A DNA stretch of 64,000 nt. Origin: Rhexocercosporidium sp. MPI-PUGE-AT-0058 (Eukaryota; Ascomycota; Leotiomycetes; Helotiales). Below, piece after piece: positions 4,944 to 61,164 of this stretch. Each line of letters opens with the position of its first letter. The first letter of the stretch is position 1. The notes beneath the pieces are model-generated. The model made no database searches. It was not told the DNA's origin and saw only the letters and a list, made by a program, of their open reading frames with translations. A program made the translations under genes and the position numbers. The stretch is taken from positions 463,501-527,500 of the forward strand of contig JAGTJL010000027.1 in NCBI GenBank assembly GCA_020746875.1. The letters are read 5' to 3'.

Positions 4944-5449
4944 GGATAGAGTCGCAAAAAATTATCAAAGGCCACGATCTTGATAGTTCTTACGGGTAGG
5001 CTATTCTGGCTCCCACACCTGCCCCACTGGTCACCGACCTCAACCCTCACTTTTGTGATGGCCATCTGTTTAATCTGGCATATACTTAAACACTTCATCC
5101 ATTACTCACCGCTCTTCCCTCCAAATCGACGCAGCGTAGCCATAGTTATGATGTGTTGAAGTTGGGATCACGTTGGGAGTTGCATAGTGGGGTCGGCTTG
5201 ATATTCCAAACTTTTGAGCTAGTACTATTCCTTCACCCTCCTGAAGTCGGTAGAGACTGAAACCCGCGGACGATCGGCCGAGCTTAAACCCTTAGGAACT
5301 CCATACAACGACCGAGCGCTTACTGTCCTTCAGAACCCTCGAAGTTGTGCTGAAGCAGTTAATCACCGTTAAAACTACGTTGGGGTCCCTTACCTCAGTG
5401 GCCATCATTGGCGGCGTCCCTCTTTCACGTATATCAGCATCTCTGGTAA
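4944..5449. other. 3' flank of the micro-exon gene
   Basis: No further gene recognised. This stretch is downstream of the minus-strand secreted-peptide gene and probably holds its 3' untranslated region. A minus-strand open frame covering 5292-5516 only reads through the gene's last intron and terminal exon. Confidence 0.4.
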
Positions 5450-7751
5450 TTACCAGGAATTCAGTGAAATATTTACCTTCTGGAAGCGCATTAGCATAAT
5501 CACGGCCAGCCAGCACTTGGAATTTAGAGGGGAGAACACTTACAGCCTATAAGGCGTATTAGTAATGTGATAGCTAGCAAGCACCTAGAATTCAGAGGGG
5601 AGAACACTTACACACTACAAGGCGCGTTAGTAATATAATAGCTAGCAAGCACCTAAAATTCAGAAGAGAGAACACTTACACCCTGTAAGGCGCGTTAGTA
5701 ATGTAATAGCTAGTAAGCACCTAAAATGTAGAGGGGGAGAACACTTACTGGCTACAAGGTGCGTTAGCATTGTTATAGCTAGCAAGCACTTGGAATTTAG
5801 AGGGGAGAACACTTACATCCTATAAGGCGTATTAGTAATATAATAGCTAATAAGCACTTAGAATTCAGAGGGGAGAACACTTACACCCTATAAGGCGTAT
5901 TAGTAATGTGATAGCTAGCAAGCACCTAGAATTTAGAAGAGCAGAACACTTACTGGCTATAAGGTGTGTTAGTAGTATTACTGCTAGCAAGCACTTGGAA
6001 TTTAGAAGGGAGAACACTTACAATCTATAATATACGTTAGTAATATAATAGCTAATAAGCACTTAAAATTCAGAAAAGAGAATACTTACGCACTATAAGG
6101 CGCGTTAGTGATGTAATAGCTAGCAAGCACTTGGAATTTAGAGGGGAGAACACTTACACCCTATAAGGCACGTTAGTATTGTAATAGCTAATAAGCACTT
6201 ATAATTCAGAAGGGAGAATACTTACACACTACAAGGCGCGTTAGTAATGTAATAGCTAGTAAGCACCTAAAATTCAGAGGGGGGAACACTTACTTCCTAT
6301 AAGTAGTATTAGTAATAAAATAGCTAGTAAGCACTTGGAATTTAAAAGGGAGAATACTTACAACCTATAAGGCGTATTAGTAATGTAATAGCTAGCAAGT
6401 ACTTAGAATTCAAAGGGGAGAACACTTACACACTATAAGGTGCGTTAGTAATATAATAGCTAGTAAGCACCTAAAATTCAGAGGGGAGAACACTTACAGC
6501 CTATAAGGCGCGTTAATATTATAATAGCTAGTAAGCACCTAGAATTCAGAGGGGAGAACACTTACACACTACAAGGCGCGTTAGTAATATAATAGCTAGC
6601 AAGCACCTAAAATTCAGAAAGGAGAACACTTACACCCTGTAAGGCGTATTAATATTATAATAGCTAGCAAGCACTTAGAATTCAGGAGAGAATACTTACT
6701 CGCTATAAGGCATATTAGTATTATTACTGCTAGCAAGCACTTGGAATTTAAAAGGGAGAACACTTACTGGCTATAAGACATATTAATAATGTGATAGCTA
6801 ATAAGTTCCTAGAATTCAAATGGGAGAACACTTACACACTATAAGGTGTATTAGTATTGTGATAGCTAGTAAGCACCTAGAATTCAGAGGGGAGAATACT
6901 TACTTGCTATAAGGCATATTAGTAATGTAATAGCTAATAAGTTCCTAGAATTTAGAGGAGAGAACACTTACACCCTGCTGTAAGGCGTATTAGTAATATA
7001 ATAGCTAGCAAGCACTTAGAATTCAGGAGAGAATACTTACTCGCTATAAGGCATATTAGTATTATTACTACTAGCAAGCACTTGGAATTTAAAGGGGAGA
7101 ACACTTACAAACTATAATATACGTTAGTAATGTAATAGTTAATAAGCACTTAAAATTCAGAAGAGAGAATACTTACACACTATAAGGCGTATTAATAATA
7201 TAATAACTAGTAAGCACTTGGAATTTAGAGGGGAGAATACTTACAATCTATAATATACGTTAATATTATGATAGCTAGCAAGCACTTGAAATTTAGAGAA
7301 GAGAACACTTACTGGCTAAAAGGTGCGTTAGCATTATTATAGCTAATAAACACTTGGAATTCAGAGGGGAGAATACTTACACGCTATAATATACGTTAGT
7401 ATTATAATAGCTAGCAAGCATTCGGAATTTAGAGGAGAGAATACTTACAGTCTATAATGTACGTTAATATTATAATAGCTAGCAAGCACTTGGAATTCAG
7501 AGGGGAGAACACTTACACCCTATAAGGCGTATTAGTAATATAATAGCTAGCAAGCACTTGGAATTCAGAGGGGAGAACACGTACACACTATAAGGCGTAT
7601 TAGCATTGTTATAGCTAACAAGCACTTGGAATTTAGAGGGGAGAACACTTACTTGGCGCTTCGCGAGAGCATGGTTTTCCCGGTCCATTACGTTCGGAGA
7701 ACTAAAGGCTAGAGCACCTAAAGCTAGCGACAAAACGATGAAAAGCTTCAT
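5450..7751 (-). CDS. Secreted cysteine-rich peptide gene with 31 single-codon exons
   Basis: Exon 1 (7653-7751) starts MKLFIVLSLALGALAF, a signal peptide, and ends ALAKRQ, a Lys-Arg kexin-type site; it closes in phase 0 before GTAAGT. Then come 31 units, each an intron of about 65 nt (GTAAGTGTTCTC donor, TACTAAT/TACTAAC branch site, TATAG-like acceptor) followed by exactly three bases. First bases (plus coordinates) of the triplets: Cys 7585, 7177, 6836, 6566, 6430, 6226, 6090, 5612; Gly 7517, 6972, 6634, 6158, 5885, 5680; Pro 7313, 6768, 5954, 5749; Arg 7381, 7041, 6700; Ile 7245, 6022; Ala 6498, 5544; Thr 7449; Phe 7109; Gln 6904; Val 6362; Glu 6294; Asp 5817. No triplet is a stop. Cys spacing is C-x5-C-x4-C-x3-C-x-C-x2-C-x-C-x6-C. 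The last exon (5450-5479) encodes KVNISLNSW and TAA. Predicted total 73 aa, about 41 after kexin cleavage. It would be a secreted disulfide-rich peptide, perhaps an effector or antimicrobial; the function is unknown. No RNA evidence is available to me. Confidence 0.8.
5480..7652 (-). repeat. Tandem array of ~32 intron units, period ~68 bp
   Basis: Head-to-tail repeat of about 68 bp, AT-rich. On the minus strand each unit runs GTAAGTGTTCTC, CTCTAAATTCCAAGTGC, GCTAGCTAT, TACTAAT/C, then CCTTATAG. The most variable positions are the three bases between acceptor AG and donor GT. The 5'-most unit has the donor GTACGT (7579-7584) in place of GTAAGT. Several acceptors are in an alternative ATATTATAG context. 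The last unit (5480-5543) has a different 3' half, with branch-like GCTAATG and acceptor CTTCCAG. Confidence 0.9.
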
Positions 7752-7846: not shown

Positions 7847-8034
7847 AGACGAAAAAAAGCTATGATACGAAATGTACATTACAAATACTTCAAAGAATAT
7901 GCCGAAAATGCCGGCCGTTACGCATGGGCACATTGTTACGTCTGTCCAAATACGTGCCATTCGCCCGATACGCCAGAAGCCTTGAGCGCTTTGAAGTTGT
8001 TAAATTCACCAATCGGATTGTTAGGAGTTTAGGC

Positions 8035-8182
8035 GTGTGAAACCGCCACATCCCTTTGATGAAACTTAAAACTCTATCCCCTTAAGCAAACTTTAGCTTC
8101 GGGCGTTTGAGACGTGTGAAACCGCCACATTCCTTTGATGAAACTTAAAACTCTATCCCCTTAAGCAAACTTTAGCTTCGGG
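8035..8182. repeat. Tandem duplication of a 69-bp segment (period 79 bp)
   Basis: Copies at 8035-8103 and 8114-8182 begin GTGTGAAACCGCCACAT and end TTTAGCTTCGGG; I see one difference (CATCCC versus CATTCC). The pair lies about 280-430 bp upstream of the micro-exon gene's start codon and could be part of its control region. Confidence 0.75.
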
Positions 8183-16304: not shown

Positions 16305-19300
16305 TCATTTATGAATCAATTCATGCGACTCATCTAGACAGAGGGCCTTCAACGCAAAACATTCTTCACAAATATCAAAATTCCCATGACTACAAACACT
16401 GCAACGAAAATAACTATCTTTCTCTGAGATTCCTAAAACGCAGACGTCGCACCATCTAGAGCTTTTATCGGCAAGGACTGAAATGGTAGTTTTAGGCAAG
16501 TCGTCTTCTTCAATCAACATGCCATATTCTTTGCACTTTTCCTGCAAGAGCTCAGCGATTTCGCGATGTCCTGTCATTCTCGCCCACCCTAAAGGCGTTC
16601 GACCGCAACTGTCTGGGGCATTCAAGGCATGGCTTTCAGTTAAGAGAAACGCAACTACGTCTCTGTGTCCCATCCTCGCCGCGATTGACAGAGGTGTCGA
16701 GTTATAATAGTCTTTTGAATTAATGTCAACTCCATTTGTGGCAAGAAGGAGTTTAATAGTTGGTTCGTTTCCATTCTTGGCAGCGTGCAACAGCGGCGTG
16801 CGTCGGGTATTATCCTTTGCCTCGACATCGGCGCCATTCTTGAGCAGCAACTTGACAACTTCGACATGGCCGCCGCTTGAGGCTGAATGTAATGGCGTTG
16901 AGTTGCTATCAGTTTCAACTGTCACGGCGGCCCCATTTTCGAGCAGTAACTTGACGACTTTGATATGACCGTTCCTTGAAGCTGTATGTAATGGTGTCCA
17001 TCTATTCTGGTTTGCGGCTGTTATGTCGGCCCCATTCTCGAGCAGCAATTTAACGACTTCGACATGGCCGTTGTTTGAAGCTACATTTAACGGCGTCCAT
17101 CCGTTCTGGTTCGCGACTGTTACGGCGGCCCCATTCTCTAGCAGTAACTTGACGACTTCGATATGGCCGTTCTTTGAGGCTGAATGTAATGGTGTCCATT
17201 TATTCTGGTTTGCGGCTGTCACGTCGGCCCTATTCTCGAGCAGCAATTTAACGACTTCGATATGGCCATTTTCAGACGCTGCATTTAGAGGCGTCCATCC
17301 GCTTTGGCTTGCAACCGTCACGGCCGCACTATTCTCAAGTAGTAATTTAGCCACTTGAACATGGCCGTTCCTTGATGTCGAATATAATGGTGTCCATCCG
17401 TCCTGGTTTGCGACTGTCACGTCGGCCCCATTCTCGAGCAGCAATTTAGCGACTTCGACATGGCCGTTGTTTGAAGCTACATTCAACGGCGTCCATCCGT
17501 TCTGGTTCGCGACTGTTACGGCGGCCCCATTCTCTAGCAGTAACTTGACGACTTCGATATGGCCGTTCTTTGAGGCTGAATGTAATGGTGTCCATTTATT
17601 CTGGTTTGCGGCTGTTACGTCGGCCCTATTCTCGAGCAGCAATTTAACGACTTCGATATGGCCATTTTCAGACGCTGCATTTAGAGGCGTCCATCCGCTT
17701 TGGCTTGCAACCGTCACGGCCGCACTATTCTCGAGCAGCAATTTAGCCACTTGAACATAGCCGTTCCTTGATGCCGAATATAATGGTGTCCATCCGCCTT
17801 GATTTGCGACTGTCACGTCGGCCTTATTCTCTAGCAGCAACTTGACTACTTCGATATGCCCGTTGTTTGAAGCCGAATTCAATGGCGTCCATTTATCCTT
17901 GTTTGCAATTATTACGTCGGCCCCATTCTCGAGTAGCAATTTAACGACTTCGACATGGCCATTATCTGACGCTGCATTTAGAGGCGTGCATCCGTTCTGG
18001 CTTGTTACCGTCACGGCCGCACCATTCTCGAGCAGCAACTTGACCACTTCGACATGCCCGTTGTTTGAAGCCGAATTCAATGGTGTCCATCCATTCTGGT
18101 TCGCAACCGTCACGTCGGCCCCATTCTCGAGCAGCAATTTAACGACTTCGACATGCCCGTTGTTTGAAGCCGAATTCAATGGTGTCCATCCGTTCTGGCT
18201 TGCAACTGTCACGGCGGCCCTATTCTTAAGCAGCAATTTAGCGACTTCGATATAGCCATTCCTTGAAGCTAAATTTAATGGCGTCCATCCGTCCTGGTTC
18301 ACAGCTGTTACATCAGCCCCATTCTCGAGCAGCAATTTAGCGACTTCGATATGGCCATTATATGACGCTGCATTTAGAGGCGTCCATCCGTTTTGGCTTG
18401 CAACCGTCACAGCCGCGCCATTTTCGAGCAGCAACTTGACCACTTCGACATGCCCGTTGTTTGAAGCCGAATTCAATGGTGTCCATCCATTCTGGTTCGC
18501 AGCTGTCACATCGGCCCCATTCTCGAGCAGCAATTTAGCCACTTGAACATGGCCGTTCCTTGATGCCGAATATAATGGTGTCCATCCGCCCTGATTTGCG
18601 ACTGTCACGTCGGCCTTATTCTCTAGTAGCAACTTGACTACTTCGATATGCCCGTTATTTGAAGCCGAATTCAATGGCGTCCATTTATCCTTGTTTGCAA
18701 TTATCACGTCGGCCCTATTCTCGAGTAGCAATTTAACGACTTCGATATGGCCATTATCTGACGCTGCATTTAGAGGCGTGCATCCGTTCTGGCTTGTTAC
18801 CGTCACGGCCGCACCATTCTCGAGCAGCAACTTGACCACTTCGACATGCCCGTTGTTTGAAGCCGAATTCAATGGTGTCCATCCATTCTGGTTCGCAACC
18901 GTCACGTCGGCCCCATTCTCGAGCAGCAATTTAGCGACTTCGACATGGCCATTATTTGACGCTGCATTTAGAGGCGTCCATCCGTTCTGGCTTGCAACCG
19001 TCACAGCCGCGCTATTCTCGAGCAGCAACTTGACTACTTGGACATGGCCGTTCCTTGATGCCGAATTCAATGGCGTCCATCCATCCTTGTTCGCAGCTGC
19101 CACATCAGCGCCGTTCTCGAGCAGCAACTTAACGATCTCATCACGTCCCTTTAAAGCAGCTGCTTGTAATGCGGTTCTGTTAGACTCATCCACATGATTG
19201 ACCCCTACTTTTCTTTCTTTAAGGAGGTATATGACAGTATCTCGAAGCCCAAGAAGTGAAGCGTAAAATAATGGGCTAATCGAAGCAATTTCTCTCTGAG

Positions 19301-21579
19301 ATTCAGGTGTCGTTGATTCGCTGTCGTCATCACCAAGCCACTTTTTCCATGGCTCCCAATATCCTTGCTCAGGATCGAAGAGCTTGTTAGTGAGCTCAAC
19401 TACTTCGTCATAGTTTGAACCATTCTCTCTAGTATGGTAGTGCCATAATTCCGCGGCATAGTCTCGGAATGGCCGTCTGTCTATATCGCTTTGAAACCGT
19501 AGAGATTCTTGCCATACGATCGGAAATTTTAGATAGCGGAGACACAACTTGGCTAACACGTTGCTTTGGAATGTCTCGTTAGAGACGCGTAGTTGTTTAT
19601 TGGCTGTAAACAGTCCTCCCAGGTCCGGCATGTTGGAAAGAACATATTGCTTCACTGAAAAGTGTGCCAAATGTAGTGTCATTGAGCCCAAATCCTGATC
19701 GGGTACTGCTTTCCGAGTCTCAAGGAAAGATCCACACAAACCTAGGATTTCGCTGCTAATATAGTCTTCGTCGATGGTATCTGGTAGCTCGTCGACTGGG
19801 AGATCTTCACAGCTGTCGTCATCCACGATAAGAAGAGCTTCAGTGATTTCGAGAATTGTGAGCGGACGTAAGGCCAACGCGGTCCATCGAAGAATAGAAA
19901 AAGCGCGAAGCCTGTCCTTGTCAGGCAGATGGAAAATCTTCGCCCAGTTTCGGTCGTAAAGATTGTCTAGTGCTGTAGGGGCTTGATCGATAGTTGCTTC
20001 GAGTTGCTTCTTATTCTTTCCACTACGTAATTGTCCCTCTAGCATCTTTACCCAGAGAAACATTCCGTCGCATCGGTCGGCCATCCTCTGTGATAGCTCC
20101 ATCCTAAGTGTTTCGCTCTTATTTGATAACTTGTTATCAATAACACTCCGAGAGAACAAGATAGTGTCGGGTCGGACATCCTCGGGATGGATTTGGTACT
20201 CTTTTAAACCTTGATTACTGTCGCCTTTCCAAAGAGCACGAAAGCCGCATCGAATTTCGGGTTCATCGCGGCTGAGAATCAAGATTCGAGTACTTGCATA
20301 CGCAACTGCTCGCTTAATTGACTCAAAAAACTCCACAGTATTCTCTTCCCATATACACTCATCAAGGCCATCTGCGACGAATGTACAGTTTGGTATATGC
20401 TGAACGATCGTCTGAAATAGGTCAACGATTTCAGTTTGAGATGCATTACGTCCGTCTGTTGCTTCCCTCTTGCCACAAGCTAATTCGAATGCATCTCGAT
20501 TGCGTGATATTATCTGAGATACCCAAGACCTTATTATGTTGAAGGGATCTCGTCTGCTTTCTAAGTCTGACGAACAGAAATAGTATGCAAGTGGGGATTC
20601 GAGCATCTCTGACAGATACTGAACCACCCGTGCACATAATATTGTCTTTCCGTGTCCTGCAGGACCGTTGATCCATAAGGGTTTAGCAGTTCCAGAGGGG
20701 AAATCGGGGGATACCCATTCCAGGAAGGCCTGTCGACTTAGAATCCAGTCGCATGTGCCGTCGAGCTTCCTTCGAATCAAGCTGTCATAAACATTGTTGG
20801 CCCATGACGCATTAAGCCAGATGTCTAATTCCTTCCTTATATCATCTTTAATCGTTAGCGAGGCTTTGTAAAAGGCGTGGAAGACCTACGTTCAGCCTGC
20901 TTTTCCAGCTTCATAAGTACTCGTTGAGAGTTAGAGAACCATGCATCCTTATCTTCACCCCGTAGGTAGTTAGACTCGTTTAACTATGAGGTTTAGAGAA
21001 GTACATACTGTTCAGGGTCAGACCGTCATCCCTTGTACCCTTATCCACATTCCCCAGTCCTGCCAGTCCGTCCGGTGGGACCAAGCTGTATAATCTCTGA
21101 ACCAAGGCTCCAAATTGTTGTACTTGGGAAATGAATATTGCTTTGCTCCTGAGAGACCATCCGATCTTACTCTTCTTCGAGATTGTCCCTTCAGGCTTTT
21201 GAGATTTTTGACGCGTGGTAAGGAAACGAATTCCGTCAGGAAAAGAGTTTGGGCCTGCTTCTACTACAGGCTGGAGATTGGACACCGTACCGTCCGCTTT
21301 GTTAAAGATCTCCTGAATACATGATAGAATCTCTTGCACGATCGAGTTTATCTCTTCATTATCGAAACGATTATGGCCGTTCTTCGGTGTATTTTTGTCT
21401 ATGCCGACACCTTGAGCCCATTTCATGAATAGAACCTTGTCAGCCTTAAATTGAGCAACAACCGATCGCGACTCTGACGAAAATTCCTTGTAGGAATCCA
21501 CTTTCTCAATGACATCTAGACATGCACTGAAAACGCCAGCTAAGCCTACGATTCCGATGGTGAAACTGATTGGTTCCAT
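16305..21579 (-). CDS. HeLo-NACHT-ankyrin-ZZ NLR-type protein
   Basis: Exon 1 (21579-21009) starts MEPISFTIGIVGLAGVFSACLDVIEKV, a HeLo-type N-terminal domain linked in fungi to membrane-active cell death. A short exon (20983-20890) carries NYLRGEDKDAWFSNSQ. After an intron at 20889-20846 (GTAGGT donor, GCTAACG branch) comes the long exon to 16305. That exon has NACHT with Walker A GPAGHGKTILC and Walker B TFVADGLDEC, then a linker with LDNLYDRNWAKIF. About 27-28 ankyrin repeats of 33 residues follow (GWTPLNSASNNGHVEVVKLL type), and a C-terminal ZZ zinc finger (WCDVC...CSVC...DICEEC...HELIH). The splice between the first two exons is one base out of phase as I place it, so either the donor differs or there is a one-base indel. 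About 1,730 aa. Likely an allorecognition or immune-type receptor that oligomerises on ligand binding by the repeats. Confidence 0.8.
16700..19200 (-). repeat. 99-bp ankyrin-coding tandem repeat
   Basis: More than 25 units of 99 bp encode the ankyrin repeats. Blocks of four successive units (residues following GADVTVANQNGWTPL) recur almost unchanged later in the array. The pair NKWTPLHSASKNGH / NGWTPLNVASNNGH also recurs. The outer units at both ends are more diverged, as expected if the inner ones are shuffled by recombination. Confidence 0.85.
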
Positions 21580-24275: not shown

Positions 24276-27200
24276 GTGGAGATTCGGACTCAAGACGGAA
24301 GGGTGCGGATCGAACGAGCACTTCTCGACAGCGGTGCCGAAGGCAACTATGTTTCTCAGGCGCTTGCAATCGAATGCGGATGGAAGCTTGTAACTAATCA
24401 AATTGAATTAGCCACAATCGAAGGAAGAGAAGTTACTACTTACGGCACTCATTCCTTACAATTGCATATCACTAATAGCGAAGGCACTACGAAAGGGCAT
24501 CGGCAGTCGTACATCGCCTGCGACTTCGAGATTCCAGGAGTTACTTTCATCTTAGGATTTCCTTGGCTTAAGGAAGTTGACCCTGCTATTAGCTTTCGAT
24601 CAAGGACCTGGCGGTTTCCCTTCGGAAGGAATCAGGTTAACGTTATCTCTGCCAGGAAGTTTGCGAAGAAAACTCGGAAGGATCAAGTGTATTGCGTCGT
24701 ACTTAACGCTAAGAATATCGAAGGTGCCGAGTTGCCTCCGAAATATATCGACTACCAGGAGATCTTCAGCGAAACAGGTGCTGGAACGCTACCTAAACAC
24801 CATCCGATGGAGCATCGAATCGACCTCGAACCTGGCAAGGAACCACCATGGGGACCCGTTTACCCACTCTCCGAGTCAGAGCTGACAGTGCTCCGAGAAT
24901 ACCTCGAAGCGAGTTTAGAGAAGGGTTGGATCCGAAGATCTACTAGCCCTGTAGGAGCGCCTATTCTGTTTGTGCCTAAGAAGGGCGGAGGACTGCGATT
25001 ATGTGTCGATTACAGAGGGCTTAATGCTGTTACGGTGAAGAATCGGACCCCTTTACCCTTGATTAGTGAAACCCTCGACCGGTTGAGACGCGCTAAAGTG
25101 TTTACAAAGCTAGACCTGAAGGATGCGTATCACCGACTCCGAATCAAGCAAGGCGACGAATAGAAGACGGCATTTCGGACCCGATACGGGCACTTTGAGT
25201 ATTGCGTGCTTCCTTTTGGGCTCTCGAATGCTCCAGCGACATTTCAAGCTTATATTAACCAAGCTTTAATTGGCTAGTAGACGTCACTTGTGTAGTCTAC
25301 TTAGACGATATTCTTATCTTTTCTGAGAGCATCGAAGACCATACGGAAGCTGTTCGAGAGGTCCTCGAAAAGCTTCGCACTCATAAACTCTACGCTAACC
25401 TCAAGAAATGCGCATTCGACACTGATACTGTGGAGTTTCTAGGGTTCGTAGTAGGCCCGACAGGTATCCGAATGGACCCCTCCCGAGTCGAGAGCATCCA
25501 GAAATGGCCTTTGCCTAAGTCGTGGCGAGATATACAAGTATTCTTAGGGTTTACTAACTTTTACCGCCGTTTCATTCGCAGTTATGCAAAAGTTACTCAA
25601 CCTATTACTGATTTATTAAAAGGGATGTAAAGAGGAAGGAAGACAGAACCTTTTCGGTTCTCTCGCGGAGCCACCACGGCATTCTTGATCCTACGAGAAA
25701 GATTCTCTCAGGCTCTAATCCTTCGTCACTTCGACCCTCAACTAAAGATTCGGGTAGAAACAGATGCTTCGAAATTCGCTATTAGTGGAATCCTATCTCA
25801 ACTATTCGGCAGCGGTACGGAGGCTCGATGGCACCCTATCGCATTCTACTCGAAGAAGCTCTCTCCTACTGAGCAACGGTATGAAGTTCATGACGGGGAA
25901 CTAATGGCGATAGTGCATGCATTTAAGCAATGGAGTCAATACCTCCGAGGCGCTTCCGATGTTATTACGGTCCGAACAGATCATCACAATCTCAAATACT
26001 TTATGACGAAACGGAGGCTTACCGGACGGCAAGCGAGGTGGGCCGATGAACTAGCTGAATTCGATTTTGTTATTGAATATCGGACTGGGGCTACAAATCC
26101 TGCTGATGGGCCTTCGCGAAGACCTGACCTCAGAGACTCGGAACCTAGTCGGGGTGAAGACGAAGAAGAGGAGCAGTTACCGACGTTGCATCGGAAGCTA
26201 CGCTTAGCTGCGATGTTGCAAAAGAGAAGGCCTCTGTTGATGGCATTTCTAAAGTCGGGGCTTAGACAACCCCGCACCGATGAGTTATCGGAGTCAGATC
26301 AAGGATCGTCCATGAAGGATTCATGGGGCAGCGAAGAGCAATCGAAGGGGGCACGAGGGGCCTCCGATGAGTCTATTGCTGGTGTTACTGGTTGCAAACA
26401 GTACATACCACGGCGAGTAGCAGTTATACTGTTACAAACCGAAACAGCAGGCAGCGAACCTTCGGAACCGATTCAAAGCATAATCCTTGATTTACAGAAG
26501 GTAGATCCTTTTGTGATGAATAGGACGTACGAATCGATTCCGAGGGGACGTCGAGCTGGGTCCGAAGGACACTGGAAGATGTGCGAAGATGGACTGTTAC
26601 GATATCGTGGCAGGACTTATGTGCCTGAGAAATCACTTCGGAGTGAGATCTTAAATGCTAATCACGATGATGCCGTGGCAGGACACTTCGGGTTCCGAAG
26701 AACCTTCGAATTGCTTTCGAGGAAATACTTTTGGCAAGGATTACGTACAGACGTTAAGAAGTATGTGAGCACTTGCGCAGAGTGTCAAAGAGGGAAACCA
26801 AGAAGGCACCGACCTTACGGCGAGTTAGCCCCGTTTCCTATTCCTTCAAAACCTTGGGAAGAGATAATTATGGATTTTATTACAGACTTACCGCCGAGTA
26901 AAAGGGTAGGTCGAGTGTACGATTCTATTCTCGTGATCGTCGATCGATTTACGAAGTTGGTTCGGTATATCCCCGTGACGAAGACGATTACTGCACCCGA
27001 GCTAGCCGAGCTTTTTATACAACATGTATATAAGGACTTTGGATGCCCTAAAGGTATTACCACCGACAGAGGCTCTGTCTTTACAAGCAAGTTCTGGTCT
27101 TCGGTAATGTTCTACCTTCAGGTTCGACGCCGACTTAGCACCGCATTTCATCCGCAAACCGATGGGCAAACCGAACGACAGAACCAAGACTTGGAATTCT

Positions 27201-27957
27201 ATTTGAGGACATACTGTGATTACCGCCAAGATAATTGGGCCTCTAAGCTAGCCTTAGCGGAATTCACATATAATAATTCGGTGCATGCATCTACCGGTTC
27301 GACACCTTTTCGGATGCTATACGGGTTTAACCCGGAGCTTGGTTCGAACGTCGAGGACGACGTCCAAGAAGGAGGGGCACCTGCTGCAGTTGAGAGAGTG
27401 AGACTCTTACAGCAGGAAAGAGAGTACTTGCGGAGAAGCTTCGAATTGCTTCCGAATCCCATAAGAAGTTCTACGATGCTAAACACAAAAAGACTAGGTT
27501 TCAAGTCGGAGACATGGTTTTACTAGCTACGAAGCACCTTCGACAGTTAAGACCTTCTCGGAAGCTTGCCGACAAATTTCTAGGGCCTTTTAAGGTCAAG
27601 AGGGTTGTTTATAGTCACGGTCAAGCATATCAGCTCGAACTGCCCCCGACTTACCGCATTCACGATACTTTTCATGTGTCACTTTTGGAACCGTAGCAAG
27701 GACGAAAGGGAGTCGAAGCCAGACCGGAGGCAATTCAAGTCCAAGAGCAAGAAGAGTTCGAGGTTAAGTCTATTCAGGCTCATAAGGATACGAGGCGAGG
27801 CCGCCTGTATTTAGTCCGTTGGAAGGGTTACTCTGCTGCAGATGATACTTGGGAGCCTATAAGTCATCTTGCACACGCTAAAGATGCATTGCAAGAATAC
27901 TTGAGGGATATACCAGGAGAAGGGAAATCGGAATCACGACGGAGCTCACGAAGATAA
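24276..27957 (+). pseudogene. Gypsy pol: protease, RT, RNase H, integrase, chromodomain
   Basis: In order: aspartic protease [12 protein letters not shown] (about 24325). Reverse transcriptase from [20 protein letters not shown] through [12 protein letters not shown], then YLDDILIFS near 25295. RNase H VETDASKFAISGILSQ to VRTDHHNLKYF. Integrase with the HHCC zinc module (AGHFGFRR, STCAECQRGK) and catalytic region MDFITDLP, TTDRGSVFTSKFW, GQTERQNQ. A GPF-like KFLGPFKVKRVVYSHG leads into a chromodomain (YLVRWKGYSAADDTWEPISHL). Breaks: TAG at 25161-25163 where the motif expects Trp, a frameshift near 25275, TAA at 25628-25630, a frame change near 27480, and TAG near 27694. Most of the nonsense changes fit C-to-T or G-to-A. 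No active enzyme can be made. Confidence 0.9.
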
Positions 27958-36376: not shown

Positions 36377-39300
36377 ATGCGTCTGCTACAGTCTGACAGC
36401 AATGGCAACCTCAGCCTGACCGAGTTCTTTGAAAGCGCCATACCCAACTATGCTATACTCTCACATAGATGGGGAACGGACGAGGTTACCTTCAAGGACC
36501 TGACAGATGGTACGAGCAAGAGTAAAGCTGGCGGCTATGGCAAGATACAGTTCTGCGGAGAACAGGCTAGGCGTGATGGCTTGGAATACTTCTGGGTGGA
36601 CACATGCTGCATCGACAAATCGAGCAGCACCGAGCTCTCAGAAGCTATCAACTCGATGTTTCGCTGGTATCAGAAAGCGACCAGATGCTACGTCTATCTA
36701 TCCGATGTTTCGATACGGAAGCGGAAAGCAAGCGATGGATCTGCCGAGTGTACTTGGGAATCTGCTTTTCGAGCAAGCAAATGGTTTACACGAGGCTGGA
36801 CCTTACAAGAACTCCTTGCTCCAAGCTCAGTTGAATTCTATTCCCGGGAAGGCAAGAGTCTAGGTAATAAGAGAACTCTAGAACAACAAATCCACGAGAT
36901 TACAGGAATCCCTGCCACGGCGCTTCGAGAAAACGCTCTCTCCCAATTCGACGTCGATGAACGATTCTCATGGGTAAAAAATCGACAAACCACACGTAGG
37001 GAAGACAAGGCATATTCGCTTTTTGGCATTTTTGATGTCCAGATGCCACTTCTCTATGGCGAAGGAGAAGTCAAGGCGTTTCAGCGGCTCCAGGAGGCCA
37101 TCGACAAACCTCTAAAGGGTAAGCGTAAACCTTTCTGTTCAGTAACTTCTCAAAAACTCGAAGTAACTGCTGACTAGTAATACAGAACAGAAACTCGTTC
37201 TTAGCAGACTACGATTCGCCGGTAATGCAACATTCGACTCCCACGATGAAGAACATAACGCCAGATGTTACCAAGGTACTCGAGTGGAACTACTTCGGCA
37301 CATAGAAACTTGGGCCGGCGATCTTCGCAGTGAATGCGTATTCTGGCTAAACGGTATGGCTGGCACTGGCAAGTCCACGATCTCGCGCACTATAGCCCAG
37401 AAACTTGACGATAAGGGTGATCTCGGCGCCAGTTTCTTTTTCAAAAGGGGCGAAGGTGACCGTGGCGACGCAGGAATGTTTATTGAAACGATTGTTATCC
37501 AGCTCGTCCAAAAACTACCCTCTTTGGCACGACACGTCCAAAAAGAGATCGAGGACGACCCAGGTATCTCGCGCAAAGCTTTGAAGCTCCAATTCGAAAC
37601 TCTCATCTTACAACCATTGCGCAAGATGTCCAAAGATCCGCAAAAATCTTCTAGGGCTATAATTGTCATCGATGCCCTTGATGAATGCGATCAGGAAGAG
37701 GATATCGGGATCATTATCCGCCTACTGCCACAAGTACAACGTATTGCCTCAGTACAAGTCAAGTTTTTTCTTACCAGCAGGCCAGAACTGCCTATCCGCC
37801 TCGGTTTCGCAGACATAAGCGGTGCATATGAAGGGCTAGCTCTCCATCAAATTGCCGAATCAATTATCAAAGAAGACATCTCTACCTTCTTGGAACACGA
37901 CCTAGCGACGATCCGACATGATTACAACAAATCAGTGCTAACGAACCGACAACTACCTGCCGACTGGCCTGGACAGCGGAACGTCCAAGTTCTAGTTGAA
38001 ATGGCGTCGCCCTTGTTCATTTTTGCTGCAACTGTCTGTCGGTTTATTCGTGACCGAAGATGCGGACGACCTAACGAGCAACTTGCTAAGGTTTTGAAGT
38101 ATCACACCCCAAGCCAAGCATCTAAGCTTGATGCGACATATCTCCCAGTCCTGAATCAGCTGTTATTCGGACTTACTACATTAGAAAAACGAAGCGTCTT
38201 GGAAATTTTCCAGCAAGTCATCGGCTCGATCATCATTCTGATCAGCCCTCTTTCCGCAAATTCCTTGGATCGACTACTTGGGATCGACGAAGGCACAGTC
38301 GAGAGTAGTACAGATCTTCTCCATTCGGTTCTAAGCATCCCCTCTTGTCATGATCACCCAGTGCGGCTTTTTCATCTGTCATTCCGGGATTTTCTGGTTG
38401 ACGATGAAAAATGCGAAACAAACCCTTTCTGGGTAGACGAGACGCAGGCTCACCAAAGAATGGCTGACCACTGTATCCGTCTCATGTTTAAAACTTTGAA
38501 GCAAGACCTCTGTGGTTTGAAAGGTCCTGGTGTGCTTGTAGCAGATGTCGAAAGAAGCCGGGTGGACAAGTGTATTTCCCCAGAGGTTCAATACGCATGC
38601 CTCTACTGGGTCCAGCATCTGCAAAACAGTGGTTCCCAGACCTACAATAGCAATGAAGCTTACCGGTTTTTACAGCCTCATTTACTGCACTGGCTTGAGG
38701 CACTTGGGTGGATGGGCAAGATTTCGGAAGGAATTCAAGCAATATTGTCCTTGGAGGCTCAAATTTCAGTAAGCGCTTTGCTTATTATTTAGAAATTTCT
38801 AACTTGTCCTTAGGCTAATATAAGCCCCGATTTGCATGCATTTATCTATGATACAAAGCGATTTGTGTTATATAATCGACTAGCGATTGAACAGGCACCC
38901 CTGCAACTATATTGCTCTGCTCTCGTCTTTACCCCAGGAAATAGTATTATTCGAAGGAACTTCGAGGGATATATTCCAGATTGGATTCAACTGAGACCAA
39001 AAGTGCAAGCACACTGGAGCGAGGCACTGCAGACGCTCGAGGGCCATTCGTCCTCGGTCTCTTCAGTCGCCTTCTCGCCTGACGGCAAGCAGGTAGTCTC
39101 TGGGTCTGGCGATAAGACAGTCCGGCTCTGGGATGCTATAACAGGAGCAGCTCTGCAGACGCTCGAAGGCCATTCGTCCTATATCTATTCAGTGGCCTTC
39201 TCGCCTAACGGCAAGCAGGTAGTCTCTGGGTCTGACGATAAGACAGTCCGGCTCTGGGATGCTATGACAGGAGCAGCTCTACAGACGCTTAAGGGCCATT

Positions 39301-40781
39301 CGTCCTCGGTCTCTTCAGTGGCCTTCTCGCCTGACGGCAAGCAGGTAGTCTCTGGGTCTGGCGATAACACAGTCCGGCTCTGGGATGCTGTGACAGGAGC
39401 AGCTCTGCAGACGCTTAAGGGCCATTCGTCCTCGGTCTCTTCAGTCGCCTTCTCGCCTGACGGCAAGCAGGTAGTCTCTGGGTCTGACGATAACATAGTC
39501 CGGCTCTGGGATGCTGTGACAGGAGCAGCTCTGCAGACGCTCGAGAGCCACTCTTATTATATTTATTCAGTAGCCTTCTCGCCTAACGGCAAGCAGGTAG
39601 TCTCTGGGTCTGGCGATAAGACAGTCCGGCTCTGGGATGTTGTGACAGGAGCAGCTCTGCAGACGCTCGAGGGCCATTCGTCCTCGGTCTCTTCAGTCGC
39701 CTTCTCGCCTGACGGCAAGCAAGTAGTCTCTGGGTCTGGCGATAAGACAGTCCGGCTCTGGGATATTGTGACAGGAGCAGCTCTGCAGGCGCTCGAGGGC
39801 CATTCGTCCTCGGTCTCTTCAGTGGCCTTCTCGCTTGACGGCAAGCAAGTAGTCTCTGGGTCTGACGATAACACAGTCCGGCTCTGGGATGCTGTGACAG
39901 GAGCAGCTCTGCAGGCGCTCGAGGGCCATTCGACTTATGTTTATTCAATGGCCTTCTCGCCTAACGGCAAGCAGGTCGTCTCTGGGTCTAGTAATAAGAC
40001 AGTCCGGCTCTGGGATGCTGTGACAGGAGCAGCTCTGCAGACGCTCGAAGGCCATTCGTCCTATGTCTATTCAGTGGCCTTCTCGCCTAACGGCAAGCAG
40101 GTAGTCTCTGGGTCTGACGATAAGACAGTCCGGCTCTGGGATGCTATGACAGGAGCAGCTCTACAGACGCTTAAGGGCCATTCGTCCTCGGTCTCTTCAG
40201 TGGCCTTCTCGCCTGACGGCAAGCAGGTAGTCTCTGGGTCTGGCGATAACACAGTCCGGCTCTGGGATGCTGTGACAGGAGCAGCTCTACAGACGCTCGA
40301 AGGCCATTCGGCCTATGTCTTTTCAGTGGCCTTTTCGCCTAACGGCAAGCAGGTAGTCTCTGGGTCTGGCGATAACACAGTCCGGCTCTGGGATGCTGTG
40401 ACAGGAGCAGCTCTGCAGACGCTCGAGGGCCATTCGTTCTATATCTATTCAGTGGCCTTCTCGCCTGACGGCAAGCAGGTCGTCTCTGGGTCTGGTAATA
40501 AGACAGTCCGGCTCTGGGATGCTATAACAGGAGCAGCTCTGCAGACGCTCGAGGGCCATTCGTCCTATGTCTCTTCAGTCGCCTTCTCGCCTGACGGCAA
40601 GCTGCTACCGTCTTGGAATATATCAAATTCTTGGATCGCAGAGGGCGCTATAAACATTCTCTGGCTGCCTTCTGATTATCGAGCTACTCGTATAGCTGTT
40701 TGGAAAGAAAATATTTCTTGGGCACAATCCTCAGGGAGAATTTCGTTCATTCGGTTTAGACAAGGGCCAAAACTTATATAG
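36377..40781 (+). CDS. HET-NACHT-WD40 protein, HET-E/HET-D-like
   Basis: Three exons, 36377-37118, 37186-38768 and 38814-40781, with canonical introns, join in frame to 1,430 aa. The HET domain (residues 1-250) shows YAILSHRWGTDEVTF, YFWVDTCCIDKSSSTE, RGWTLQELLAPSSVEFY and EDKAYSLFGIFDV. NACHT has Walker A WLNGMAGTGKST and Walker B AIIVIDALDECD. Then come 13 WD40 units of 42 residues (GHSSSVSSVAFSPDGKQVVSGSGDKTVRLWDA), the last incomplete, and a short tail. The order matches the Podospora HET-E/HET-D vegetative-incompatibility proteins, in which the WD40 face binds a partner (a glycolipid-transfer protein) and HET triggers cell death. No frame break despite RIP-like damage around it. The gene lies between long inverted repeats inside a transposon-bounded block. 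Confidence 0.9.
39020..40600 (+). repeat. 126-bp WD40-coding tandem repeat (13 units)
   Basis: Units of 126 bp with long identical stretches (TCTCGCCTGACGGCAAGCAG, GTCCGGCTCTGGGATGCT). Variation concentrates in the codons after GGCCATTCG and at the two residues after TCTGGGTCT. This is the pattern expected of concerted evolution with selection on surface residues. Confidence 0.9.
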
Positions 40782-43670: not shown

Positions 43671-44450
43671 CTATTTGTCATAAGACCTAGACGCAATAAG
43701 CTGCCCGTTAGGGGAAAATGCTACTGCATAAACGCAGCTCGAGTGCCCCTCAAGCGTCTGCTGGAGTACCCCAGTCGCTGCGTCCCAGAGCCGTATAGTC
43801 TTGTTGTTAGACCTAGATGCGACAAGCTGCCCGTTAGGGGAGAATGCTACTGCATAACACAACTTAAGTGGCCTTCGAATATCTATTGCAGCGCCCCGGT
43901 CGTTACGTCCCAAAGCAGTACAGTATTATCCTAGGACCCAGACACGACGAGCCGCCTATCAAAAGAGAACGCTACTGTATCAACGAATCCGGAGTGGCCT
44001 TTCAGCGTCTGCTGTAGCTCTCCAGTCGCTGCGTCCCAGAGCCGTACGGTGTTACTAAAGGACTCAGACGCGACAAGCTGCCTATTAAGGGAGAATGCTA
44101 CTACCATAACAGATTTCGAGTGGCTTTCGAGGGTTTGCTCTAGCGCCCTAGTCGCTATCTCCCAGAGCCGTACGGTCTTATCCCGGGACCCAGACGCAAG
44201 AAGCTGTCCGTTAGGGGAGAATACTACTGCCGCGACCAAGTCCGAGTGGCCTTCGAGCGTTTGCTGCAACACCCCAGTTACTATATTCTAGAGCCATATC
44301 GTCTTGTCGTCGGGCACAGACGCGACGAACCGCCCGTCAGAGGAGAACGCTACTGTATTAACCTAGCTCGAGTGGCCTTCGAGGATCTGCATTTCCGCGT
44401 TCCAGTGTGCTTGTACTACCGGTTTCAATGGAATCTAACGTGGGATACAG
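43671..44450 (-). pseudogene. WD40-repeat remnant of a second NLR-type gene
   Basis: Five to six decayed WD40 units (LEGHSDLVAAVVFSPNGQLL, SRDKTVRLWEIATRALEQTL, LKGHSGFVDTVAFSFDRRLV, VYAVAFSPNGQLIASRS) are interrupted by stops. Upstream of the first unit a linker reads CSALGFAPKNSTIRKEFESC and VQAHWNAEMQILEGHSS. This corresponds to CSALVFTPGNSIIRRNFEGY and VQAHWSEALQTLEGHSS in the intact gene. So this is a diverged paralogue of the HET-NACHT-WD40 gene reduced to its 3' part, in opposite orientation. Confidence 0.8.
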
Positions 44451-55305: not shown

Positions 55306-58300
55306 TTAAAGGAGTTGCTCCAGTTGAGCACGAACATCCACCAAGTTAATAAGCGCAACAAATGCTTCAAATTTCTGCCGAGAAAGGTTTTTAGTGAGTC
55401 CGTCAGCTGGCATATAGCCTGTAGGAAGATATTCCACTGTAAAAGTGCCCTTCTGAAACTCCTGGCGCAACCACATATTCTGAATATCAACGTGGCGCAA
55501 CTTAGTGGAAATACGCTGATTTTCCCCAACGATCAACCGAATCGTCTGTTGATTATCACAGAAAATTGTCCAAGCTGCTCCTACATCAAGGCGTAATTCT
55601 TGAAAGAATCGCTGAAGTGCCATAAGTTCCTTGCCGGTGCGCTCAACTCCAAGAAGCTCTGCTTGTGTTGTAGACGTGGTAATTGTATCTTGTAAAGCTG
55701 CTCTCCAAAGGATTAAACCTCCAAAAAGTATGAAGATATATCCATTAGAAGATCGCCTTGTCTCGATATCGTCCGCAAAAGAAGCATCTGATGCTATTAT
55801 AAGGTGGGAGTCGCGCAGCTTATAGCTGTAAGTGATCGCTAAGAAACGAGTGCCGAAAAGGTAACGAATTGTCCAGTTAACTGCAGCCAGGTGCTCCCGG
55901 GAAGGATTAATCAAGAAGTGAGAAAGCCTTGAAGCAGCAAAAGCGACGTCTGCGCGCAACATGATTGCAGTATAAAGCACTGATCCAACCTTCTCTTGAA
56001 ATTCCTTAATTTGAGCTGGAGTAGCCTGTTCTTGATTCTTTAGTAGCTCGACTTGAGGTAATGGTGTACTTGGGCAATTTCCATCCACTAACTCAAATCG
56101 AAGAGCAACCTTTTGAATATAAGTGTCGTGTACTAGAGAGATAGTCTTCGCTAATCGATCTCTAATAATACGAACGCCTAAGAACCACTCCGTTTGCTCT
56201 CCTCCGGTAAGCTCATATGCTGTATTCAAGCCGTCGATAATTGGTTTGGCGTCTTTGAAAGCCGAACTGTGATAGAGCACCTGAATATCGTCGACATAGA
56301 ATATCACAAACACCGTACGTTGCTCGTTCATGAATATACAAGGCTCCTCTTTACAAGCGATCAACCCTAAAGTTGTCAAAGTATAAGTGAAGTCACCGTA
56401 CCATAGCGCCGGTGAGTCCCTGAGTCCGTAAAGTGCGCGATCAACCTCTACTACCTTTCCGTCTTGTTTAAAACCGTCCGGTAGATAGCAGCGTACGCGA
56501 GCACTTGTCTCACTTCGTTTGGCGTTGATAAAGGCATTTACCACATCAAATTGAATCATTTCTAAATCAAATTGAGCTGCAATAGCCATAGCGGTTCTGA
56601 AGGAGCGAGCAGCTAAAGTAGCTGCATATGTTGACAAAATTGACGTTTCAGGCTGTAAGTCTCCTCTCACAACGATTCGGGAGCGACAGCGGGTTAAATA
56701 CCCTGACGAATCGACTTTGGCGTGAAATACCCATTTCAAGGGAATTGGTTGCTCGGTAGCAAAGGTGTGTTTGACGACTCTCCAGCAGTTGCGCGACTCA
56801 AGGTTGGTGATCTCCTTAATAGCGTCGGCTCGGAAGTGCTCTCCTAACGGGTGGTCCCTAAGGTCTCTCCAATTTAATGGGTCCTTAGGCATTTGTGATT
56901 GGTGAATCCGTGGGAGCTCAACTGGTTGTCGAATTTCGACATTTTTAAGTACAGACGCTGATATAATAGCGTGAACTGCGCTCAGGTCTTTTCCGTCTCT
57001 TCGCACTGGTTCTTGACTAGGCCAGAAAGTCCCTAGAAAATCCTCCAAGTGCTCGCGGTTGCTTGACGGTTGTAATGATTCCGTAATTAGCTCTCTAACA
57101 GTTGCTGTATAGACGCTTCGATTCGGTTTCGTTACCTTGCTGCTGACTCGAGTCTTTCGACCTTTATCAGTTGCTCGGTCTTCTACTCTTTTCCTCCTAA
57201 GAGGTTTAGGTAGGCCGGAATTTGATTCAGTTGGAGCCGGGAGCAACAAGCGTAAACCTGACTCTCCGTCTTCTTCTGATTCCGATGATTGCGGATGCTC
57301 CTCGTACTCAGTTGCTTGAGGCAGAGCTTCCAATTGCTTAGGGCCGACACTTTCTTCAAGTGCTCCCCGACGCTTGAGACCGCGCTCTCGGTCGTATGGC
57401 CCTCCAGAGTAAATTACAACTTGTGGTGTCGACTTCCGCTCAGGGCCCACATCACTCTGGAAGTTTGATATACCACGTAAGACACCTCTCCCAGTTGCGC
57501 TCTCAGACGCTAACTGTCTTGAAGTGTCGGCTCGTTTTGAGACCTGATCAAGGTGCTCGTGAGTAAGAAGTCTAGCACTCTTTCTTGGCTGAATCACCCC
57601 CGAGTTCTTGCTGACGAGCGGCTGAATAGAGTCAAGAGCTGTTGAATCAGCTGGAAGTGGCGTATCTACTTCCATTGACTCAGCTAAAGGGGGAGCAGAT
57701 GGCTCCACCCCCGAGCTTAAAAGCTCAACCAGAGGTTTTAACACCTCCGAGCTCACAGGCTCGTCGACTTCCATAGCGCTCATTGCTTCGCTCAGTTGTT
57801 CTCCGTTCGGAGTAATAGACGGTGTTTTTGATTCCAGTGTGTCAAGTGCGCTCAGTCGGTTGATTATAACAAAACCAGCGTCCTGATCTCCCTCTTCTTC
57901 TTCTAGTATTTCCGCAAGATCCTTTAATGTTGAGCGCGGCTGGCCGACCGCTCTCTCCATATTCAAAGAGCCTGAATAAAAGAGGGTTTCGTTGAAAGTA
58001 ACATTCCGAGTCACTATTACACACTGTAATTGAGGCACCCAGATCCTATAAATATTGGATGAGACGTATTCAACTAAGTAACCAAGGTGCGCTCGCGGGT
58101 TGACTTTAAAAGCTCTCTTTTGGCGGAGAGCTTCTCGGTCTTTAACCATAGGGTAGGCTCTACAGCCGTACGCATATAGGTTGCTCCAGTCAGGCCGTAA
58201 ATCGGTTGTCAGCTTCAGCGTGAGCTTGGGGTCGTAATACCGAAAATACTGCTTAAACCAGGCTTGGAACACTTCGTTAGGACTCTTGAAGCCTTTGCGA

Positions 58301-60906: not shown

Positions 60907-61164
60907 AGCGAAGGAGTTGCTCTCGTGAGCTCCGAGTATTCGATAAGGGAGGAAGGACTGGAGAGGTATCGAGTCCAGTTGCTCGGCTTTTATACTCGTC
61001 CAGAGTGGAATCGAAGAGTTGGTGGAAAAACAGCGGTGTGAATTACACTCTGTAATAGGGTGGAAAACTCTGCAACGTACAGCAGATGCTCTCCCCCCAT
61101 AAACTTGCTTCACAGGCTTTATCCAAATCAACAGCGCACAGAGGGAAGAATACTAACTTAATAG

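Follow-up and report, generated by a model that had tools for sequence, protein, structure and literature searches.

Putative tandem rows of single-codon exons in secreted-peptide and immunity-type genes of a Rhexocercosporidium fungus, with a gene whose mature peptide is probably written one codon per exon

A 64,000-nucleotide stretch of DNA (the window) from Rhexocercosporidium sp. MPI-PUGE-AT-0058, a root-dwelling member of the Helotiales, holds what we take, with good probability, to be a protein gene with its mature peptide written one codon per exon, the tandem array of these exons serving as a cassette for codon-wise diversification. Several secreted-peptide and immunity-type genes of this fungus appear to hold long tandem rows of such exons. 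An earlier sequence-only reading of the window had treated the gene as a single case, and this view had to be given up, as a genome-wide scan for two adjacent units returned 144 pairs and the reversed control pattern none. Its proposal of in-frame single-codon exons that encode a Cys-rich secreted peptide is well supported by features of the DNA, i.e., kept splice sites, variable triplets and phase-0 flanks, and has a further basis in Cys codons confined to the secreted gene and in a paralogue, L037, with a contiguous Cys/Gly/Pro-rich peptide.

The window gene runs on the minus strand from 7751 to 5395 and consists of a signal-peptide exon, 31 tandem units, an AAG between splice-like sites and a short final exon. 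Exon 1 (7653..7751, minus strand) reads MKLFIVLSLALGALAFSSPNVMDRENHALAKRQ and comprises a putative signal peptide, assigned by eye, a short propeptide, a Lys-Arg pair which we take to be a Kex2-type site, and a Gln codon, after which it ends in phase 0 at GTAAGT. The ending in Lys-Arg-Gln is as first proposed. Behind it lies a 68-bp tandem array (5508..7652, minus strand) of 63-66 nt introns alternating with 3-nt exons, seen by TRF as a single array of 31.5 copies. The first single-codon exon is TGT (Cys; 7585..7587, minus strand), and the 31 exons of the array (5544..7587, minus strand) together read CGTRPICFRGQCPRGCACVECGCIPGDPGCA. Their first bases on this strand are 7587, 7519, 7451, 7383, 7315, 7247, 7179, 7111, 7043, 6974, 6906, 6838, 6770, 6702, 6636 and 6568 for the 1st to 16th exon, and 6500, 6432, 6364, 6296, 6228, 6160, 6092, 6024, 5956, 5887, 5819, 5751, 5682, 5614 and 5546 for the 17th to 31st. 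Unit-by-unit reading bears out the original count of 31 three-base exons without a stop and with eight Cys codons, preceded by the Gln after Lys-Arg.

The AAG (Lys) at 5477..5479 (minus strand) is probably a 32nd single-codon exon, or else the start of an alternative last exon (5479-5450, KVNISLNSW*). The latter was the last exon originally proposed and is possible, but the likeness to L037 and its database protein P0001 (BKA65DRAFT_601487, Rhexocercosporidium sp. MPI-PUGE-AT-0058) favours another. Because both of these end in RGAANYYGY*, we prefer a model in which AAG is followed by a probable last intron of 55 nt (5422..5476, minus strand), whose end aligns to L037 together with the next exon, and by a probable last exon RDAANDGH* (5395..5421, minus strand). 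In the preferred model the 32 single-codon exons supply 96 of some 222 coding nt, so that, as in micro-exon genes, much of the coding sequence would lie in tiny symmetric exons behind a signal-peptide exon.

The units of the window array follow the pattern YAG-NNN-GTANGT, with 30 GTAAGT donors, one GTACGT donor and a unit spacing of 66-69 bp. A branch-type motif, CTRAY, is found in 26 of the 32 introns, in 24 of them at the identical place 16 nt from the intron end; the scanned motif is absent from the other six. The unit at 6974-6977 has a second acceptor 3 nt upstream, the use of which would add Gln. Splicing of the array by intron definition is plausible: the introns would be recognized as such and removed one after another, each step extending the frame by three bases. 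Once the product is secreted, cleavage of the Kex2 type at its Lys-Arg pair would free a peptide that starts with Gln and carries eight Cys. A unit gained by duplication, or lost, would change the peptide by precisely one residue, and the reading frame would survive the skipping of a damaged unit.

The same layout could also serve combinatorial splicing, in which random exon skipping would give many in-frame peptides per gene. All exons are 3 nt long and the flanks are in phase 0, so any subset of the exons stays in frame, and schistosome micro-exon genes are likewise described with symmetrical exons that can be dropped without loss of the frame (PMC4015677). The donor and acceptor signals are nearly uniform, however, which speaks for constitutive exon use. 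Random skipping is compatible with a peptide written codon by codon, and we regard it as possible, if on the unlikely side.

The 144 pairs of adjacent units fall into the window (29), loci L019 (41), L020 (1), L021 (10), L022 (20) and L023 (35), and the loci on C23 (7) and C16 (1). Besides that of the window, the arrays are L019 (C1) with 48 units of 73 bp, L023 (C12) with 36 units of 67 bp, and three with a 74-bp basic unit, namely L022 (C12) with 27 units, L021 (C4) with 15 and L026 (C23) with 8. Decayed relatives of the arrays are found at L036 (C58) and L038 (C16). The inner units of L022 measure 74, 81, 83 or 90 bp while the exons are still 3 nt, and one further L022 unit has no GT donor. 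The genome thus holds at least six arrays, a lower bound, since arrays with further kinds of donor, with introns of greater length or with stronger divergence would have escaped the scans. Five of the six look intact; the gene of L026 may be broken, because its HET-side exon match contains a stop.

A version of the unit pattern with a 6-nt exon gave no match genome-wide, and versions with GTATGT or GTGAGT donors gave three matches each (simple repeats or a chance-like match), as did their controls. When the unit spacing was varied, the scans returned 7, 17 and 4 matches vs. 4, 8 and 1 in the reversed controls; they fall on arrays already described, on the loci of C23 and C16, on simple repeats, on an element repeated on C17, C46 and C56, and singly on C1, C21, C34 and C60. 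Like sequences from the wide-gap scan, at C17:46647, C17:288597, C46:6490, C56:2694409 and C56:2857039, are probably a dispersed repeat, and in the one on C17 that was examined (L028) the unit scan gave no run. When AAGCGNCAR followed by a unit was searched in the genome, only the window gene was found.

The host genes suggest where such cassettes would sit: in the secreted mature peptide of the window gene, in a stretch between ankyrin repeats of an NLR-type gene, and in an N-terminal stretch of HET-type genes. L019 is an ankyrin-repeat NLR-type gene (Ank_2, E 3.5e-69; NPHP3_N, E 2.5e-8, the latter match covering the end of the domain model only, as the fetched locus starts there), and its array lies between ...EVEYWYNP and TPLMRAVERGN..., beside ankyrin repeats. 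Its paralogue L020 also has ankyrin repeats and holds two 3-nt exons only, GAT (Asp) and CGG (Arg), at the site of the L019 array. The HET domain PF06985 was detected in L022 (E 4e-31) and L023 (E 1e-30), and also in P0002, the database model on the contig of L021. L021 and L026 are close to L022, with 86% and 87% identity over one exon, and the HET assignment of L026 rests on this likeness. Exons flanking the arrays are in phase 0 in all four gene types, with the start codon of L023 chosen to read in phase.

Residues 21-41 of P0003, a Leptodontidium HET protein, read EVSSSNIENRKKRVADRRRLG, the translation of an array-type intron; the stretch scores 82-91 against the best units of L021, L022 and L026 and at most 17 against L019 units. 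The protein probably reflects a faulty annotation, and it places the unit in a second genus at the corresponding site, giving its presence there and not its copy number.

Diversity within the arrays was compared among units of the commonest length (26 in the window, 43 in L019, 10 in L021, 14 in L022, 7 in L026 and 35 in L023). A triplet column ranked first or joint first of 67-74 columns in five of the six arrays and second in L026, and the count of distinct triplets was equaled by no other block of three columns in five of the six arrays and by three in L026. Relative to the intron interior, triplet diversity was 11-21 times as high for transversions and 0.9-2.7 times for transitions. Intron interiors vary mainly by transitions, which is what repeat-induced point mutation would give. 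Triplet positions 1 and 2, pooled over five arrays (L026 left out), differed from 296 intron columns with P = 4e-15, and this value, as the other P values given here, is indicative because units are not independent. Against this, individual intron columns show as many transversions as triplet columns, or more, in L021, L026 and the window (in the last when compared with position 2). In the ten rows of L021 only position 2 varies, positions 1 and 3 being fixed.

None of 168 triplets is a stop, with about four expected from the composition of the positions, i.e., a modest effect. Both this expectation and pN/pS were computed on 166 triplets; one of them is false (AGA, where exon 1 of L026 ends), and two GTAAGC units of L019 and the window AAG are lacking. 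Among the 166, and counting against the codon-wise reading, pN/pS was clearly high in L019 only (7.6), with 2.1-2.4 in L021 and L026, 1.24-1.25 in L022 and the window, and 0.79 in L023. Cys accounts for 8 of 32 triplets in the secreted window gene and for 0 of 136 in the other arrays (indicative P = 8e-7).

The reason we favor for the variable triplets is diversifying selection on the residues, as opposed to drift by transitions in the introns. The main alternative is a local mutation bias, in which the exons are included and a mutation process at AG-NNN-GT makes the triplets vary. The effect is strong even in the young array L021, where 25 unit pairs with at most seven differences in 142 flanking bases carry different codons in 18 cases, as a local process might produce. 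Position 3 is raised too: its transversions exceed those of the intron (indicative P = 2e-4, L026 left out), driven by L022, the window and L019. On the other hand, transversion diversity at position 3 is lower than at positions 1 and 2 in the window and L019, and L023 has none there (transitions only), with L022 as the exception, position 3 exceeding position 2. The lack of stops and the way in which Cys follows gene type also speak for selection on residues and against mutation bias, which we consider unlikely as the source of the variability.

Whether the triplets are exons in the first place is bound up with the conservation of their splice sites. Units were located via a core in the intron interior, after which donors and acceptors were scored in the window, L019, L023 and L021, with L022 and L026 left out. 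A GT donor is kept in 28/28 units of the window (28 of the 32 introns were found), 47/47 of L019, 35/35 of L023 and 11/12 of L021, and YAG before the triplet in 27/28, 47/47, 35/35 and 11/12, respectively. The one exception among the window acceptors corresponds to the end of exon 1, a place at which no acceptor would be expected; the exception in L021 is probably due to a unit that differs in length, so that the fixed offset fails. Interior G/C columns of the same units deviate by 3-23%. In the decayed L038, acceptors are lost in 7 of 10 units and donors in 2 of 10, and 2 of 10 triplets are stops; the pattern that listed these units required TAAG at the donor, and more decayed ones may have been missed.

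These data bear on a further alternative, in which the array would be a minisatellite lying within a single large intron, with exon 1 joined directly to the last exon and the triplets untranslated. Phase-0 flanks are compatible with this too. P0002, as modelled in the database for L021, has its start on the downstream side of the array, and neither a protein with the window array peptide nor a homologue of the spliced window peptide was found in the database. However, inner sites should decay if an array left as one big intron, as they have in L038, whereas those of the four arrays are kept. The triplets are also more variable than the intron interiors, chiefly by transversion, and Cys is confined to the secreted gene. 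A single large intron is in our judgment improbable.

For the origin of the array, the sequence-only reading had offered intron propagation or unit duplication, which either split or built the peptide. Duplication that built it is the part favored by the evidence, and propagation or splitting is less so, because paralogues differ in unit number at the same site and the triplets cannot be aligned to the contiguous paralogue beyond what shuffling gives. L020 has two units where L019 has 48, and L026, L021 and L022 have 8, 15 and 27. Such paralogues, with two units or none, point to growth of the arrays by unit duplication. Traces of block duplication are seen in L019, where adjacent units reappear three positions further along with identical codons (GAA CGT GAT), and in L023, where several do so six positions further along.

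Comparison of intron interiors gave z values of 15.3 for L021-L022, 6.4 for L019-L020 and 6.1 for the window and L037, and -1.8 to 3.2 for the other pairs. The values of L023 against L021 (2.5) and L022 (3.2) are no higher than those of several other unrelated-looking pairs. A common ancestor for all arrays was therefore rejected, as only paralogous introns are clearly alike, and the founder introns would differ between gene types. For the window array the founder intron can be named, namely that of L037 (C19). This paralogue was picked up via a weak protein match (E 0.23), and its DNA is 73% identical to that of the window gene over 82 nt of 5' UTR and signal peptide and 78% over 111 nt of 3' flank, with up to 25/25 bases identical at the intron start. 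Its peptide is contiguous and Cys/Gly/Pro-rich (RCANGGVPPACGCPNGGVPPGCESPP...). At L037:3188-3378 the contiguous peptide is a 102-bp tandem duplication, 96% alike, of which P0001 carries one copy. Homology codon for codon between the window triplets and L037 was rejected, as 559/5000 shuffles reach the score; the two peptides are alike in flavor only (Cys, Gly, Pro, Arg). To look for a knottin or another disulfide-rich fold, the mature window peptide, with its 8 Cys, was compared with PDB sequences; the best match had E = 2.

Introner-like elements inserted at every codon of a pre-existing coding sequence are a very improbable source of the array: near-identical introns between diverse codons, a contiguous paralogue and introner-like elements in other Ascomycota (PMC4457414) would fit, but codon number differs among paralogues at the same site, runs of neighboring units are repeated together in L019 and L023, different gene types show no clear sharing of array introns, the triplets match the contiguous paralogue no better than composition does, and a 19-mer of the window intron, searched in the genome with up to two mismatches, was found in its own array and in one two-mismatch match on C56 only, its one known relative being the L037 intron. 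Alike introns dispersed in many unrelated genes were thus not seen for the window array. Introner-like elements resemble the arrays in that alike introns multiply in Ascomycota; they do so between genes, whereas the arrays are tandem and local to one gene (PMC4457414).

In a PMC full-text search on microexons (single-codon, 3-nt or in tandem) and on introns in tandem arrays, none of the matches listed described such an array, and a long run of 3-nt exons was found to have no precedent there, most subscription papers lying outside the scope of that search. The nearest systems differ in several respects. Schistosome micro-exon genes share with the window gene many tiny symmetric exons and, mostly, a signal peptide, and vary by splicing, but they are animal genes for which the cited passages describe no uniform one-codon exons, whereas here exon and intron form one tandem unit (PMC4015677). 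As for homology to MEG proteins, no database candidate had three five-residue words in common with the spliced window peptide, a weak test at such a short length. Aphid bicycle and megacycle genes also encode fast-evolving secreted proteins by many small exons, more than 100 microexons in one gene; their internal exons, however, are almost all in phase 2, and tandem codon-plus-intron repeats do not figure in the passages cited (PMC9168663). Podospora het-d and het-e are fungal NLR genes with hypervariable repeat sites, in which the unit is a coding WD40 repeat, whereas the array unit is mostly intron and its variable part a whole exon (PMC12222747). A 3-nt microexon of Drosophila homothorax shows that an exon of this size can be spliced, although it is one exon, alternatively spliced from a longer one, and the arrays hold dozens (PMC7392893). 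Trichoderma Xlr2 provides a microexon in a filamentous fungus, a single regulatory one and not an array, and by that paper's account functional microexons had not previously been described in filamentous fungi (PMC11121469).

On balance we lean toward a general fungal system of codon-wise diversity, in which immune-type and secreted genes would edit a peptide residue by residue without risk to the frame, possibly with many isoforms by single-codon skipping. If so, the spliceosome could build a protein segment codon by codon, with introns forming the constant framework of a cassette for diversity, and the arrays would offer a clean test case for intron definition, minimal exon size and the diversification of genes of the nonself-recognition type. 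Automatic annotation could miss such genes: the array is absent from P0002, and in P0003 an array-type intron has become protein. Plant studies state that annotation often overlooks the smallest microexons (PMC8831610; PMC12409088). Forty-one genomes of Arabidopsis root fungi were assembled from PacBio reads with transcriptome-supported annotation (PMC8664821), and MPI-PUGE-AT-0058 may be linked to that set.

The surroundings of the gene contain other repeats. Two 79-bp copies, 96% alike, lie at 8027-8182 of the window, about 280-430 bp upstream of the start codon of the window gene. An NLR-type gene at 16305-20885 (minus strand) is one open frame of 1526 codons that matches NPHP3_N and, below the threshold, NACHT, and that carries two dozen ankyrin repeats as a 99-bp tandem repeat. 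At 37167-40781 (plus strand), a NACHT-type frame precedes one in which a 126-bp WD40 unit is present in 12.5 copies, 91% alike, and less alike 126-bp repeats are found at 43684-44383. Retrotransposon polyprotein frames lie at 25631-27526 (plus strand) and 55306-61152 (minus strand), with integrase, RNase H and RVT_2.
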